DNA of 34,475 bases from a bacterium. Its GTDB lineage: Bacteria > Patescibacteriota > Saccharimonadia > Saccharimonadales > UBA4665. The notes beneath the pieces are model-generated. The model was given only the letters and a program-made list of their open reading frames with translations, was not told the origin of the DNA and did no database searches. Made by a program: the position numbers and the translations under genes. Shown here piece by piece: positions 451-7,813 of this stretch. Within the stretch, counting starts at the first letter, position 1. Each line of letters begins with the position of its first letter. The DNA lies in contig JAJYIP010000005.1 in NCBI GenBank assembly GCA_021790005.1, positions 1-34,475 of the forward strand. The letters run 5' to 3'.

Positions 451-589
451 AGATTATAAGTTGCGGTAATAGATAATCCCCGATACCCTATTTCCACAAT
501 GAGGTATTGGTAAAGTCGCAGCCAATAAAGTCGATATTGTCAAAGTTTTAGATTTGAGCATTGATATTTGCTTAAGCTACAATGTTCGT

Positions 590-1150
590 ATGCAAAACGA
601 TGAGCCTACAAACGATAGTTCGGTTGATCCAATCAACACCTATGTCGTGTCTGGGCCGGACGCAAGTGTATCAAACGACGTTAGTGATCAGAGCGAGACC
701 ATAGAGTGGACGGCAAGCGAGTTTATAGATCACTCCAAAAGTTTTCGCTGGTATCTGGCATTAGCCGGTATTACGATTGCATTGGCTGCCCTAATATTTT
801 TGATCACAAAAGATAAAATAAGCACAATCGTAGTATTGGTTGTTGGAATTTTGCTTGGTATCTACGGTGCTCGCAAGCCCAAAGAGATTAACTATAAACT
901 AAACGGTGACGGCTTGATGGTGTCAGATAAGACCTATCCGCTAGCCAATTACAGCTCATTTTCGGTTATCGAGGAAGGTGCCTTTCGTACTCTAGCTTTT
1001 ATGCCGGTTAGGCGGTTCGGGCTCATGATTACGGTACACTATGACCCTTCTGATGAGGATAAGATCATGAATTTATTGGGTAAGTATTTGCCCATGGATG
1101 AAAGAAAAAAGGATCTTCTAGATAATCTACTGTGGAAGATAAGATTTTAA
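590..1150 (+). CDS. hypothetical membrane protein, two predicted TM helices
   Basis: ORF track starts at TTG 554, but that TTG lies in a -35-like TTGAGC (554-559). TACAAT at 578-583 precedes ATG 590 by 6 nt, giving MQNDEPTNDSSVDP... Hydrophobic stretches YLALAGITIALAALIFLI and ISTIVVLVVGILLGIYGA. Confidence 0.7.
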   Translation: MQNDEPTNDSSVDPINTYVVSGPDASVSNDVSDQSETIEWTASEFIDHSKSFRWYLALAGITIALAALIFLITKDKISTIVVLVVGILLGIYGARKPKEINYKLNGDGLMVSDKTYPLANYSSFSVIEEGAFRTLAFMPVRRFGLMITVHYDPSDEDKIMNLLGKYLPMDERKKDLLDNLLWKIRF

Positions 1151-1156
1151 AAAAAA

Positions 1157-1177
1157 CCGCACCTGACTTAGGTGCGG
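1157..1177 (-). terminator. Rho-independent terminator for the minus-strand small ORF
   Basis: Perfect 8-bp stem CCGCACCT-GACTT-AGGTGCGG. On the minus strand it is followed by eight T (A8 at 1149-1156 on plus). Confidence 0.85.
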
Positions 1178-1200
1178 CTGGGATGGGCTTGAAGTTTCCT

Positions 1201-1338
1201 TCATCTACCACGCTGATGAATTGAGTGTTCTTTTCTGAACATTTTTCGCTCCATGCGCTCGATGAAGTCGTGTTTAGCTCGTCTTTGATCCCATTTTTCG
1301 AATTGCTTTGTTATAAGTTCAGCTTCGCTCTCTGACAT
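1201..1338 (-). CDS. small basic/charged protein, 45 aa, unknown function
   Basis: Below the ORF-track cutoff. Reads MSESEAELITKQFEKWDQRRAKHDFIERMERKMFRKEHSIHQRGR*. AAGGAGGG ends 4 nt before ATG; intrinsic terminator 23 nt after the stop. Confidence 0.7.
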   Translation of the reverse strand: MSESEAELITKQFEKWDQRRAKHDFIERMERKMFRKEHSIHQRGR

Positions 1339-1431
1339 ATAACCCTCCTTTTTTTCGATCCGGTCATTTTTATTTGACCGTGCAACTAGTATTGATCCTA
1401 GTGCTTAAAAAGCACTGTAAGCTCGGTTACA

Positions 1432-2352
1432 TTGTCAAAAATTCAATATTTGTCACTATCTGATATATTGAAAGCTAGAAGCAAACTAAATAAAAACCAT
1501 GAAATGACGAACATAGTTAAGAAATTTGATAATTTGCAGTACAACAATCGGGCGCTAGCTTTTGTTGTGGCAGTTATTAAAAGATATAGCGATGATAAGG
1601 CTGGGTCTAAAGCTGCTCTGGTAACCTATTACCTTTTCATGTCATTGTTCCCTCTAATTATTTGGTTGGCACAGTTGTCCAATTGGCTCAACCGGTACTA
1701 CCCTGGAGCGGCCGACTACTTAATACGTGGGGCGACGTTTTACTTTCCTGTCATCGGTAACAAGCTTTTCGATATAGCTCACAATTCAACAGCCTCCCTG
1801 ACTGGTTTACTGGTGCCTGGACTGATTGCCTTGTATGGAGCCAGGGGCACTGCCCTGACATTTTTATCTGCCCTAGGAGATATGTGGGGAGTTCCAGAGC
1901 AAGACAGGTTTAGCTTTCCTTGGAACTGGCTACGCGGTATTGGTGTTGTAGTGGTAGGTGGTGGTGGATTTATTTTCACTGCTATTGCGACCAGCTGGGC
2001 TGCCGCAAAAGGTCATGGGCTGGTTTTCGCTACTGTTGTGGCGATAATCTCGGTTATACTGCTAACCCTAGTGTTCGTGGCTATACTTAGGCTGAGCTTA
2101 CCTAGAACAATTCGTATACACAAGGTGATTAGTGGCGCACTTTCTATGTCTGTAGCCTTAACGATCCTGCAGTTAGTCGGAGGCTATCTGATAACTCATA
2201 ATCTAAGAAGCTATACCAATGCCTATACGGCCCTCTTCTCGGTGGCGCTGGGTTTGCTGGCTTGGATATATTTGGTAGCCCAAGTGCTTTTCTATTCAAC
2301 CGAAATAACACTTGTAATTGATCGCAAGCTTTGGCCGAGACGCTTAACATAA
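1432..2352 (+). CDS. YihY/BrkB-family integral membrane protein
   Basis: Multiple TM segments; family-like DKAGSKAALVTYYLFMSLFPLIIWLAQL and YTNAYTALFSVALGLLAWIYLVAQVLFYSTEITLV. TTG start uncertain; ATG 1504 is an alternative. Confidence 0.75.
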   Translation: MSKIQYLSLSDILKARSKLNKNHEMTNIVKKFDNLQYNNRALAFVVAVIKRYSDDKAGSKAALVTYYLFMSLFPLIIWLAQLSNWLNRYYPGAADYLIRGATFYFPVIGNKLFDIAHNSTASLTGLLVPGLIALYGARGTALTFLSALGDMWGVPEQDRFSFPWNWLRGIGVVVVGGGGFIFTAIATSWAAAKGHGLVFATVVAIISVILLTLVFVAILRLSLPRTIRIHKVISGALSMSVALTILQLVGGYLITHNLRSYTNAYTALFSVALGLLAWIYLVAQVLFYSTEITLVIDRKLWPRRLT

Positions 2353-3687: not shown

Positions 3688-3972
3688 TCAACGATGAGAG
3701 CTGAGTTCTAGTTCTTTATCAACCTTCTCGCTTAAGTAAACTTTCATTAGCGATTGATAGGGCACGTCTTTTTCGTTAGCCAATTCTTTTAGTCGAGCGA
3801 GTAAGGATGATGATAGTCTAATAGATATAGATTCGGTTGAAGGCTTTAAATTTGGGAATATAGCATGCTCGGCTTTAGACCAGTCTATATACTCGGTAGA
3901 GTCGTGATTGTCCCAAAACACTATTTCTTCACCCTCAGATTTAAAATTGGGTATTTTCTTCAATTTTTTCAT
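3688..3972 (-). CDS. brnA: BrnA/CopG-type antitoxin
   Basis: Ribbon-helix-helix-like C-terminus (STESISIRLSSSLLARLKELANEKDVPYQSLMKVYLSEKV), directly downstream of a BrnT-like toxin. Confidence 0.75.
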   Translation of the reverse strand: MKKLKKIPNFKSEGEEIVFWDNHDSTEYIDWSKAEHAIFPNLKPSTESISIRLSSSLLARLKELANEKDVPYQSLMKVYLSEKVDKELELSSHR

Positions 3973-3982
3973 AATGTAGCCT

Positions 3983-4252
3983 TTATTTTCTCTTCATATC
4001 TCTTATTGATATGATCCTTAACTTGTTATTCCTAATTGTAAATGCCGTAAATAGCATTCTGTTAACCTTTGTTTTGCCGAATGCATACAGTCTAATTTCT
4101 TGGGAAGAATGTGAAGCATCATCGACTATAATTAAAGGCTTATTGTAGAATATCTCTTCAGCTTCTTGTACTGTAACAGCGTGCTTTATAAAGTTCTTTG
4201 AGATATTGCCTTCGTACCAATCAAAAGCTTTAGGATTAGGTAGAGATCTCAT
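3983..4252 (-). CDS. brnT: BrnT-family toxin
   Basis: FDWYEGNISKNFIKHAVTVQEAEEIFYNKP...RIISIRDMKRK matches BrnT architecture (FxWDxxKxxxNxxKHgvsFeeA...iRiISaRxa). Confidence 0.8.
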   Translation of the reverse strand: MRSLPNPKAFDWYEGNISKNFIKHAVTVQEAEEIFYNKPLIIVDDASHSSQEIRLYAFGKTKVNRMLFTAFTIRNNKLRIISIRDMKRK

Positions 4253-4353
4253 GCCAAGAGTATATTACAGCAATATACAAATTATCAATGCCCTGCCCAT
4301 ATTTGAGCATCAATTGCTTGACAATGCAGGCACTAGCAGAATACAATGCATGC

Positions 4354-4596
4354 ATGAATAGCATACAGTACACCATACGTTCAATTCCAGCTAAGCTTGA
4401 CCGCTCTTTACGTCAGCAATCTAAGGAAACAGGCAAGAGTCTAAATGATGTAGTTATTGCCACTCTAGAAAAAGGAGCTGGAATTTCTGCTGGCCATACC
4501 TTTAATGACTTAGATTGGTTTATCGGCAGTAAATCATTGAGTAGTTCATTTGAGGAAGAAATCGAATGGCTAGATAGTGTACCAAAGGAAATCTAA
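4354..4596 (+). CDS. VapB-like antitoxin (ribbon-helix-helix-like)
   Basis: Start reset from 4288 to ATG 4354 (MNSIQYTIRSIPAKLDRSLRQQSKETGKSLNDVVIATLEKG) because TTGACA-N18-TACAAT ends 6 nt upstream. Stop overlaps the PIN toxin start. Confidence 0.7.
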   Translation: MNSIQYTIRSIPAKLDRSLRQQSKETGKSLNDVVIATLEKGAGISAGHTFNDLDWFIGSKSLSSSFEEEIEWLDSVPKEI

Positions 4597-4991
4597 TGTT
4601 GCCCAAGTTAGCATTAGACACCAACGCCTACAGGGCACTAAATGATGGTAATACTAAATTAAGCAAGCACGTCAAAACTTCTAGTCAGCTTGGTATGCCC
4701 GTTATGGTTTTGGGTGAGTTATATTACAGCATTTTTCTGGGTGGTAAGCAGGAAGAAAACCTCCTTAATCTTAATCGTTTTCTGGCGCTTCCTCGTCTTG
4801 AATTGCTTTACATAGATAAAGCGACTGCTCGTATATTTGGAGAAATTGCCACTGAATTACGTCAAAAAGGTAAGCCTATCCAACAAGATGATATGTGGAT
4901 AGCTGCACTCTGCAAACAATATGGGTATACCATAGCTACTGCAGACAAGGGTTTTGCAGAGATTACTGGTCTTGAGATACTGAGTTTCTGA
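4596..4991 (+). CDS. PIN-domain VapC-like toxin
   Basis: LALDTNAYRAL..., acidic residues in VMVLGELYYSIF and QQDDMWIAALCKQYGYTIATADKGF; 1-nt overlap (TAATG) with the antitoxin. Confidence 0.85.
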   Translation: MLPKLALDTNAYRALNDGNTKLSKHVKTSSQLGMPVMVLGELYYSIFLGGKQEENLLNLNRFLALPRLELLYIDKATARIFGEIATELRQKGKPIQQDDMWIAALCKQYGYTIATADKGFAEITGLEILSF

Positions 4992-5002
4992 CTCCATATC
5001 CT

Positions 5003-5106
5003 AAGAGGATTTAAACCTACTCTAAGGTGTTAGTAAAAATTATAGACCTTACTAAATAAAAACCAGAGGCTTAATTCACCTCTTCAAAATTGGGTTAAAT
5101 CCTCTT
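5003..5106. repeat. long imperfect inverted repeat with two internal stem-loops
   Basis: AAGAGGATTTAAACC (5003-5017) vs GGGTTAAATCCTCTT (5092-5106), 14/15 complementary; internal TTAGTAA/TTACTAA (5030-5036/5049-5055) and AGAGG/CCTCT (5065-5069/5079-5083). Confidence 0.6.
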
Positions 5107-5232
5107 GGTACGCCTTCCTGTTTCCGCCTGGAACCGCCTCAAGAGTGAGTTGCTTCACTGGCACGAGACATTTGAAGTATCGCCTCTGACAGGTCTAGCA
5201 CAATAACTACCGTGCTGGATTAGCACAAAACA

Positions 5233-5631
5233 CTAAATTACACTAAGCCCGTGAGGTTTATAAGCATCGAACTTGCTATCGCTAGATAATAAAGTCATGC
5301 CGCTTTGGATAGCTAGCCATATGATCATCCTGTCAAAAGGGTCTCTGTGATCCTTTATCTTGGGTAGTAAGTAATAGGTGGACCACTGTTCGGAAGAAGG
5401 AATGATATCCTTTAGCCCAATTTTATATATTCCGGCCAGGAATTCATCTGGAGTATGACTGCCAAGTTCTAGCTTACCTAGAGCATATTTTAAGCTAATC
5501 TCCCATTGCGATATAGAGCTAACGAACTTTTCATTTTCAGATGACTCAATAATTTTTTTGTGTTCTGGTCTCAACTTCTCAGGGCTTAGTCTAAGCCAAA
5601 GCAGAATATGAGTATCTAGTAGATAATTCAC
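5233..5631 (-). CDS. PIN-domain VapC-like toxin
   Basis: MNYLLDTHILLWL...ISQWEISLKYALGKL...DHRDPFDRMIIWLAIQSGMTLLSSDSKF. Confidence 0.9.
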   Translation of the reverse strand: MNYLLDTHILLWLRLSPEKLRPEHKKIIESSENEKFVSSISQWEISLKYALGKLELGSHTPDEFLAGIYKIGLKDIIPSSEQWSTYYLLPKIKDHRDPFDRMIIWLAIQSGMTLLSSDSKFDAYKPHGLSVI

Positions 5632-5870
5632 GAATTAATAAGCTCTTCTTCTGTTATTTCAAAGCCGTTTAACGCATATGTCCAACCTTGAGACTTTAGG
5701 TCGCCTATTTTTACAGAGTGGTTTGGTTTTTCTAGTTGATTTTGCGGAATAATTGTCGCCAATGGTACTTTTTTGCGACCATAAGTAATTACAACTTTAT
5801 TTCCATGCTTAAGCTCATCTACAACGGATGAAAAGTTGGCTTTGAAGTCAGCGGTAGTCATTATTTTCAT
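5628..5870 (-). CDS. Phd/YefM-family antitoxin
   Basis: MKIMTTADFKANFSSVVDELKHGNKVVITYGRKKVPLATIIP is characteristic; 4-nt overlap with the downstream toxin. Confidence 0.88.
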   Translation of the reverse strand: MKIMTTADFKANFSSVVDELKHGNKVVITYGRKKVPLATIIPQNQLEKPNHSVKIGDLKSQGWTYALNGFEITEEELINS

Positions 5871-6498: not shown

Positions 6499-6660
6499 CT
6501 AATATGCTTGGGCGAAGTACCATTTTTCATTAGCCGCCTTACCACAATAAATACACTTACCTCTAGTAATAGACTGCAAGCAACGAGTTGTGGCTTTGGT
6601 CTCTTCTTTAATTGTTAGCTTCACAACTCAAGTCCCCACCAGGTACCACACCTACCTAAC
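6499..6660 (-). pseudogene. 3'-terminal remnant of prolyl-tRNA synthetase (C-terminal zinc-binding domain)
   Basis: 6499-6627 minus reads VKLTIKEETKATTRCLQSITRGKCIYCGKAANEKWYFAQAY*, like the C-terminus of Thermus/archaeal-type ProRS (EETxATTRC...C.xCG.....FAKAY). Upstream GGDLSCE continues in another frame, then stops. No catalytic core adjacent. Confidence 0.6.
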
Positions 6661-6742
6661 ACCTGAAAAATTCTGTGCTACATTGACCATAACTATTCCA
6701 AGAGCCGAAGTGTCCACGATGTAGTGAGTAAGTGCAGCACGG

Positions 6743-6771
6743 TTGAATATTTACCCAAATTATGATATATT
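6743..6771 (+). promoter_or_regulatory. promoter of the PgeF-like gene
   Basis: TTGAAT (6743-6748), 17-nt spacer, TATATT (6766-6771); ATG at 6782. Confidence 0.6.
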
Positions 6772-6781
6772 GTGAAACTAT

Positions 6782-7813
6782 ATGACAGAAGTTGCAAGTC
6801 AACTAGCAGAAGTGCCTTCATTTTACCCTTACGCTGATGGCTTTGCTGTTGGTGACGGCTCCTTAGCTTACATTACTCGTATGCGTCAGCCGGTTAAACC
6901 AGGTGAAGTGCCTAGTAGCGAGCGTTTAGTTGGTGATATTCTCCGCCGAACCTGCAAATTAGGCGGTACGGCCTGTGCTGGTTCTGGATGCCAAGCCCCT
7001 GAAGGTTACAGTAATATTGACAGACTTTGTTCTGACCTAAACTTAAAGGATGTAACGGAACGACTGGGCATAAAATCTGAAGACTTACTTATGGTTGGTG
7101 TCACTGCTGATGGTGTAGGTTTTTATGACCAACTTGAAAGTTATGGTGATGCAGTCAAGACAAACTCAGTTGGCATTCGTGAATTACCAGGCTACAATGC
7201 TTTCTTTGCAAAAGCCGATGAAGGAGTAGTATTGGGCGCACGACTTGCAGACTGTGGCTTTGCATCGATAGAGTTTAAGGACAATCTAGGTGAAGACGTT
7301 GTTGGTTTTGTTCATTTAACACGACCAAATCTGCAAGGTGAATCTAAACTAGCTTTTGAGGTTGACGGCCATCCTGCCGGTAGCTTCGAATACTTTTTAC
7401 ATGAAACCATTAAACACTATGGTGGTGATATATCTAATGTTAAGGTTCATCTGATTGCAGCAATTAAGGCTGAAAACTTCCAGCACACATTCAAAGATGA
7501 AGATGGTCAACGTCCTGAAGATCAGTTTCCAGGCTGGATTGACCAGGGTTTACTTAAAAATAAAACTAATCCTGAATGGAAGCCCGGTGACTCAATTAGT
7601 CCTGATGACATTTGGGAGCCACAGTACCGAGAAATGCTACGTTGGCAGATAGCAAGAAGCGGTATTACTGATGAGCAGTTAAGTGAAGAAGGTATGATTG
7701 ACCCTGCCGACTTAGAGCTAGGCCACGCAAGCAATCATGCTGGCGCACATGGCAAAATGCCTGACGCTCGTGACGCATACCTTATAATGTCTCGCTCTTA
7801 CAAAGCAGCTTAA
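6782..7813 (+). CDS. divergent PgeF/YfiH-like (laccase-domain, Cu-oxidase_4 family) protein
   Basis: GARLADCGFASIEF...VGFVHLTRPNLQG resembles the family core ADC...VG..HAGWRG; 343 aa with expanded C-terminus. Confidence 0.6.
   Translation: MTEVASQLAEVPSFYPYADGFAVGDGSLAYITRMRQPVKPGEVPSSERLVGDILRRTCKLGGTACAGSGCQAPEGYSNIDRLCSDLNLKDVTERLGIKSEDLLMVGVTADGVGFYDQLESYGDAVKTNSVGIRELPGYNAFFAKADEGVVLGARLADCGFASIEFKDNLGEDVVGFVHLTRPNLQGESKLAFEVDGHPAGSFEYFLHETIKHYGGDISNVKVHLIAAIKAENFQHTFKDEDGQRPEDQFPGWIDQGLLKNKTNPEWKPGDSISPDDIWEPQYREMLRWQIARSGITDEQLSEEGMIDPADLELGHASNHAGAHGKMPDARDAYLIMSRSYKAA

Follow-up and report, generated by a model that had tools for sequence, protein, structure and literature searches.

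The small ORF and its transcription unit

Contig JAJYIP010000005.1 of assembly GCA_021790005.1 (GTDB lineage Patescibacteriota; Saccharimonadia; Saccharimonadales; UBA4665) was analysed from position 1 to 34,475, and this whole stretch is referred to below as the window. On its minus strand the window carries an open reading frame (ORF) for a small protein of 45 amino acids, designated here SP, together with a Shine-Dalgarno (SD) sequence, a proposed activator-dependent promoter and an intrinsic terminator (Table 1). The ORF had been singled out in a sequence-only reading, and its start (ATG, 1338-1336), stop (TGA, 1203-1201) and length are all as described there. The near-perfect SD of that reading is present as well, but the end of the unit had been placed at 1345, which truncates it.

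Table 1. Features of the SP locus, its candidate regulator and the neighbouring genes (window coordinates unless another contig is named).
Feature	Position	Strand	Remarks
SP, 45-amino-acid ORF	1201..1338	minus	MSESEAELITKQFEKWDQRRAKHDFIERMERKMFRKEHSIHQRGR; protein kept across homologues, one strong match per genome
Shine-Dalgarno sequence AAGGAGGG	1343..1350	minus	TTAT (4 nt) between SD and ATG
Intrinsic terminator	1149..1177	minus	Perfect 8-bp stem plus T8
5' hairpin CGGTCA-AATAAAAA-TGACCG	1361..1380	minus	Directly past the predicted transcription start (~1381)
-10-like element AATACT	1388..1393	minus	NATAMT at fixed spacing from TTACAG
Proposed activator site TGTAACCGAGCTTACAG	1415..1431	minus	Holds GTA-N8-TAC; TTACAG in 32/37 homologous promoters
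Protein with two hydrophobic segments, no convincing family	554..1150	plus	Convergent neighbour; start uncertain, ATG 590 likely
BrkB/YihY-like membrane protein	1504..2352	plus	PF03631, E 2.8e-21; divergent neighbour, adjoins SP in nearly all loci
CopG antitoxin/BrnT pair	3688-4252	minus	
FitA-like ribbon-helix-helix/PIN pair	4288-4991	plus	
Phd-like ORF (by eye)/PIN pair	5233-5870	minus	
NtcA-like CRP/FNR-family regulator	G000:C33, cNMP domain 6658-6927	minus	Pfam cNMP_binding and HTH_Crp_2

The motif AAGGAGG at start-codon distance precedes three ORFs in the window: groES (19600), an ORF of 171 amino acids (26070) and SP. Mononucleotide shuffles gave 0.12 AAGGAGG-preceded ORFs of at least 40 amino acids per window, and because three real cases stand against this figure, the arrangement at SP exceeds chance. 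Whether SP is real is, however, decided by its conservation at the protein level (see below).

The terminator was found as proposed, 23 nt past the stop codon, and was also recovered by a terminator scan, which counts 10 pairs in the hairpin. Its stem arms CCGCACCT and AGGTGCGG enclose the 5-nt loop AAGTC (1177-1157) and are followed by T8 (1156-1149), and the tail shares 2 nt with the stop codon of the convergent gene. Terminator-like structures lie within 100 nt downstream of 22 of the 38 homologues, at a shuffle rate of 3.7%. With a conserved protein, a promoter and a terminator, the locus supports the earlier proposal of a small, self-contained transcription unit.

At the other end of the unit, a short GC stem similar to that of the window follows the predicted transcription start in nine of ten sequences (nine from the genus of the window, plus G089 from another genus) and in none of the 23 from the remaining genera; shuffles gave 13% and 6%. 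These hairpins were counted sequence by sequence, once folding of the MAFFT alignment of homologous leaders had given no pairs and hence no consensus structure. The stem may shield the 5' end of the transcript.

Conservation and distribution of SP

In a protein search, 21 of 61 relatives were matched at E<=1, and 15 of the 21 at E<1e-9. In a profile search of the 93 genomes of the window's GTDB family, 43 were matched, 37 of them by strong homologues (defined as E<=1.5e-9) that are spread over 22 genera, whereas the weaker matches span chiefly the core FIxRMERKL. The named records are Saccharibacteria metagenome-assembled genomes. The homologues are ~40-47 amino acids long; their ATG codons align, and so do the strong SD-like sequences before them. 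Variation is highest at the third codon position (0.33/0.25/0.56 for the three positions). Within the genus of the window, the nonsynonymous rate dN is 0.12-0.24 and the synonymous rate dS at least 0.9 or beyond estimation; dN/dS is 0.04-0.17 in the nine genus pairs with estimable dS. The sequence-only reading had named beforehand what would speak against the ORF, including a lack of conservation in close relatives and frame-breaking changes; the comparison instead revealed synonymous-biased conservation in the family, a conserved start and no frame breaks. Judged by this pattern of substitution, it is close to certain that SP is a genuine protein-coding gene.

Outside the family, no SP match was obtained among 295 genomes of the order or across the 380 phylum genomes sampled, and no homologue was found in viral contigs or plasmids. 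Five-copy weak matches in G057, the sole outside-family genome in question (E 0.06), contain stops and were discarded as chance or repeat. Pfam, NCBIfam, PHROGs and PDB sequences offered no convincing family for SP; scattered matches of homologues reached E 0.004 at best, and none occurred in the window protein. By these searches, SP is a previously undescribed, lineage-specific small-protein family confined to one Saccharibacteria family.

The promoter

Upstream of the ATG of nearly every homologue lies the composite pattern TGTnA-N6-TTACAG, 21 nt, NATAMT. Among the 37 strong homologues, 32 have TTACAG, and in 28 of these 32 NATAMT follows 21 nt further on. TTACAG carries 1.6-2.1 bits per position, as compared to 0-0.3 over the 60 bases that precede the site, and the composite pattern recovers the SP promoter in all 16 SP-containing genomes searched. 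The palindrome TGTAA-N6-TTACA includes GTA-N8-TAC, and exact GTAN8TAC occurs at 15 of 40 sites. The centre of the site falls near -42, if the (predicted) transcription start is taken to lie 7 nt past the -10 element.

In cyanobacteria, the canonical NtcA-activated class II promoter carries GTAN8TAC centred close to -41.5 together with a -10 box of the sequence TAN3T (PMC3898017). The SP promoter resembles it in the layout of the palindrome and in the constant spacing from there to a -10-like hexamer, and the candidate regulator (see below) has NtcA as its closest solved structure. It differs in the relaxed left half and the nearly fixed right half TTACAG of the site, in its -10 sequence NATAMT, and in an additional conserved AG (1.4 and 1.9 bits) 9-10 nt past TTACAG (window 1405-1404), which is unexplained by the class II layout. 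A sigma-70 scan of the minus strand gave no promoter-like site ahead of SP, in keeping with a promoter that depends on an activator. Both the position of the site and the fixed -10 spacing are those of class II promoters, and a class II CRP/NtcA-type activated layout is therefore well supported by the aligned promoter sequences.

Further matches to the composite pattern (SOD-like, DJ-1/PfpI-like and small membrane proteins) were not accepted as a regulon, since the reversed-pattern control gave 0-3 matches per strand and genome. Separately, the palindrome TGTAAGTTTCyTTACAG stands before a related small membrane protein in two genera (L170 in G023, L180 in G032), a possible second target.

The candidate regulator

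Proteins with a cNMP_binding domain are encoded in all 13 genomes searched. One orthologous group, recognized by the helix HQDFANLTGLTRETAATELNKLK, possesses the CRP/FNR-family domains with a Crp-type helix-turn-helix (HTH), and its nearest solved structures are those of NtcA (E 2e-13 vs 1e-6 for the next). It shares with NtcA the cNMP_binding domain and the Crp-type HTH, and NtcA is its best PDB match. Orthology to NtcA was nevertheless not borne out: in the alignment, the arginine of the NtcA effector segment SDRFYHAVAF is replaced by alanine. In NtcA this arginine contacts 2-oxoglutarate; the ligand of the regulator probably differs from that of NtcA.

The composite site is present upstream of the gene of this NtcA-like regulator itself in 7 of 17 genomes of the genus, and in each case none of 200 shuffles reached its score; these self-sites were first noticed as second-best genome matches to the composite pattern. 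Furthermore, TTACAG is found in 32 of the 34 SP genes whose genome has a close regulator orthologue (E<1e-30) and in none of the three without one (G024, G098 and G103, where the sites are degenerate). On account of the self-site, the co-occurrence of TTACAG with the orthologue and the type of site bound by the nearest solved relative, the NtcA-like protein is likely to bind the SP promoter.

Two observations concern the surroundings of these regulators. A receiver-only response regulator (PF00072) lies convergent beside the NtcA-like regulator at L125, L127, L130, L138 and L175. A second CRP paralogue has a palindrome, approximately CGTAAGAATGCTTACG, upstream at L126, L128, L131, L134 and L157, which resembles the SP site.

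The predicted protein

AlphaFold2 (21 alignment rows) models SP as a single helix comprising residues 3-43, with a mean predicted local distance difference test score (pLDDT) of 82.5 and a predicted template modelling score (pTM) of 0.40. In all homologues but one (a weak one) the first 18 residues carry a net negative charge, whereas the remainder is net positive and includes the R/K-rich core F(I/L)xRMERK(L/M), which shows no or almost no variation. SP is thus predicted to form one amphipathic, charge-polarised helix with an acidic half followed by a basic half that contains the RMERK core. The hydrophobic faces of the two halves diverge by 80-178 degrees, which would suit a helix that touches two surfaces or bends. 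A highly charged, helical and basic product had been proposed from the sequence; the charge and the single predicted helix stand, but basicity is a property of the window protein (isoelectric point 9.8) rather than of the family, as homologues range over 6.2-10.4, several of them at 6.2-6.9.

Genes adjoining SP

The same two neighbours are kept beside SP in nearly all loci. The convergent gene is found in 71 of the 93 genomes of the family. Among the 19 genomes of the window's genus, SP and the convergent gene are both present in the same nine and both missing in the same ten, some of which are incomplete. In this genus, close BrkB orthologues are restricted to genomes with SP. Since SP, the convergent gene and close BrkB orthologues go missing together, the absence of SP looks like absence of the whole segment.

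Proposed role and alternatives

We propose, with a probability of roughly 0.6, that SP is a stand-alone, activator-induced small-protein gene whose product binds a partner macromolecule. In the -35 region, the NtcA-like CRP/FNR protein would occupy TGTnA-N6-TTACAG and bring RNA polymerase to NATAMT; transcription from SP's own promoter would stop at its own terminator, and SP would be made in quantity whenever the activator is on and act by contact with its partner. The gene and its conservation, the promoter layout and the terminator are all read from the DNA itself. We infer that control is by activation rather than repression, that the amount of SP made is large, and that it binds a partner. 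Small regulators linked to NtcA in cyanobacteria do act by protein contact, among them the best-known pair, the glutamine synthetase inactivating factors IF7 and IF17, of which IF7 works via conserved arginines (PMC6316151, PMC7760959). The likeness lies in a small protein under an NtcA-type regulator and implies no sequence relation to SP; moreover, IF7 and IF17 are repressed by NtcA (PMC6316151, PMC7760959), whereas SP is proposed to be activated.

Several points weigh against this proposal. The Fisher probability for the contrast between genomes with and without the regulator orthologue (~0.001, calculated by hand) takes no account of shared ancestry or of the fact that some genomes are incomplete. 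Outside the genus of the window, the regulator's own gene mostly has no clear site, and the NtcA-like regulator also occurs in genomes without SP. In part of the genus, CGTAA-N6-TTACG precedes the gene of the second CRP paralogue. Finally, AlphaFold2 is inclined to model short charged peptides as lone helices, and the pTM of SP is 0.40.

The palindrome of the second paralogue raises the question of which protein binds at SP. This paralogue (helix RHQDIASS..TRETTSRE) is conserved in all 13 genomes looked at, and its palindrome shares the core GTAA-N6-TTAC with the SP site; nevertheless, its outer bases differ (C/G vs T/A), loss of TTACAG accompanies the absence of a close NtcA-like orthologue, and the composite site with its -10 precedes the NtcA-like gene rather than the paralogue gene. 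Binding of the SP promoter by this paralogue instead of the NtcA-like protein is therefore considered unlikely. A transcript acting as a small regulatory RNA with an incidental ORF might be suspected from the short unit with its terminator and, in the genus of the window, its 5' hairpin, but the codon-position pattern, the kept start codon and the low dN speak for coding and make this alternative very unlikely; an Rfam scan of the window reported two tRNAs only and no family at SP, and the leader alignment lacks a consensus structure.

As to the partner, the sequence-only reading had suggested a nucleic-acid- or ribosome-binding protein. For SP this would mean contact with RNA or the ribosome through the basic, RMERK-rich half, e.g., as a starvation-induced hibernation or translation-modulating factor. 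The near invariance of the R/K-rich core and the predicted lone helix are compatible with it, and the ribosome modulation factor of E. coli is also a small protein under CRP control. However, the suggestion found no backing in a match to Pfam, NCBIfam, PHROGs or PDB sequences or in the neighbourhood of SP, where no ribosomal or RNA gene is conserved, and several orthologues are, as whole proteins, neutral or slightly acidic, so that we regard it as doubtful. Improbable to a similar degree is an envelope module of SP with the adjacent two-segment and BrkB/YihY proteins, in which the amphipathic helix would dock on the membrane or else on the two-segment protein's cytosolic part. These neighbours adjoin SP in nearly all genomes, SP and the convergent gene are co-present or co-absent in 19 of 19 genomes of the genus, and the two are still paired in G007, which yielded no close BrkB orthologue. 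Yet the convergent gene, present in 71 of 93 genomes compared to 37 for SP, functions elsewhere without it, the two genes are convergent and not co-transcribed, and their shared absence may reflect a single-segment deletion or missing contigs.

Returning to an activator-induced SP that binds a partner, it is a tentative thought, with the odds against it, that the NtcA-like regulator has SP as its main strongly conserved direct target in the family, and perhaps as nearly its only one. SP would then be part of a dedicated signal-to-small-protein switch with which the cell, a presumed episymbiont, responds to the status of nutrients or of its host, e.g., by adjusting translation or a key enzyme. 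Work on small genes and on transcriptional control seems scarce for Patescibacteria: the main text of a 2023 paper on Saccharibacteria genetics does not contain the terms 'transcription factor', 'Crp', 'small proteins' or 'regulator' (PMC10633639), and literature searches yielded nothing on either topic. Nothing on the SP gene emerged either from literature on small proteins, small ORFs or CRP in Saccharibacteria. What the locus adds is a new conserved small-protein family, a concrete promoter motif to go with it and a candidate regulator; a regulon search can start from the motif.

Other features of the region

Beyond the convergent gene lie, in most genomes, an Hsp20-like gene and several small VirB2-like membrane proteins in an array, and in some a ComF-like gene; note that these three names were read from sequence by eye and not from a profile search. 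At loci L026-L043, the VirB2-like array and the Hsp20-like gene are conserved across genera at a distance of 1-6 kb, mostly to the convergent-gene side of SP. A DnaA-box-like sequence TTATCCAC is present upstream in four loci and is not general. In the window, three toxin-antitoxin-like pairs lie side by side at 3688-5870.
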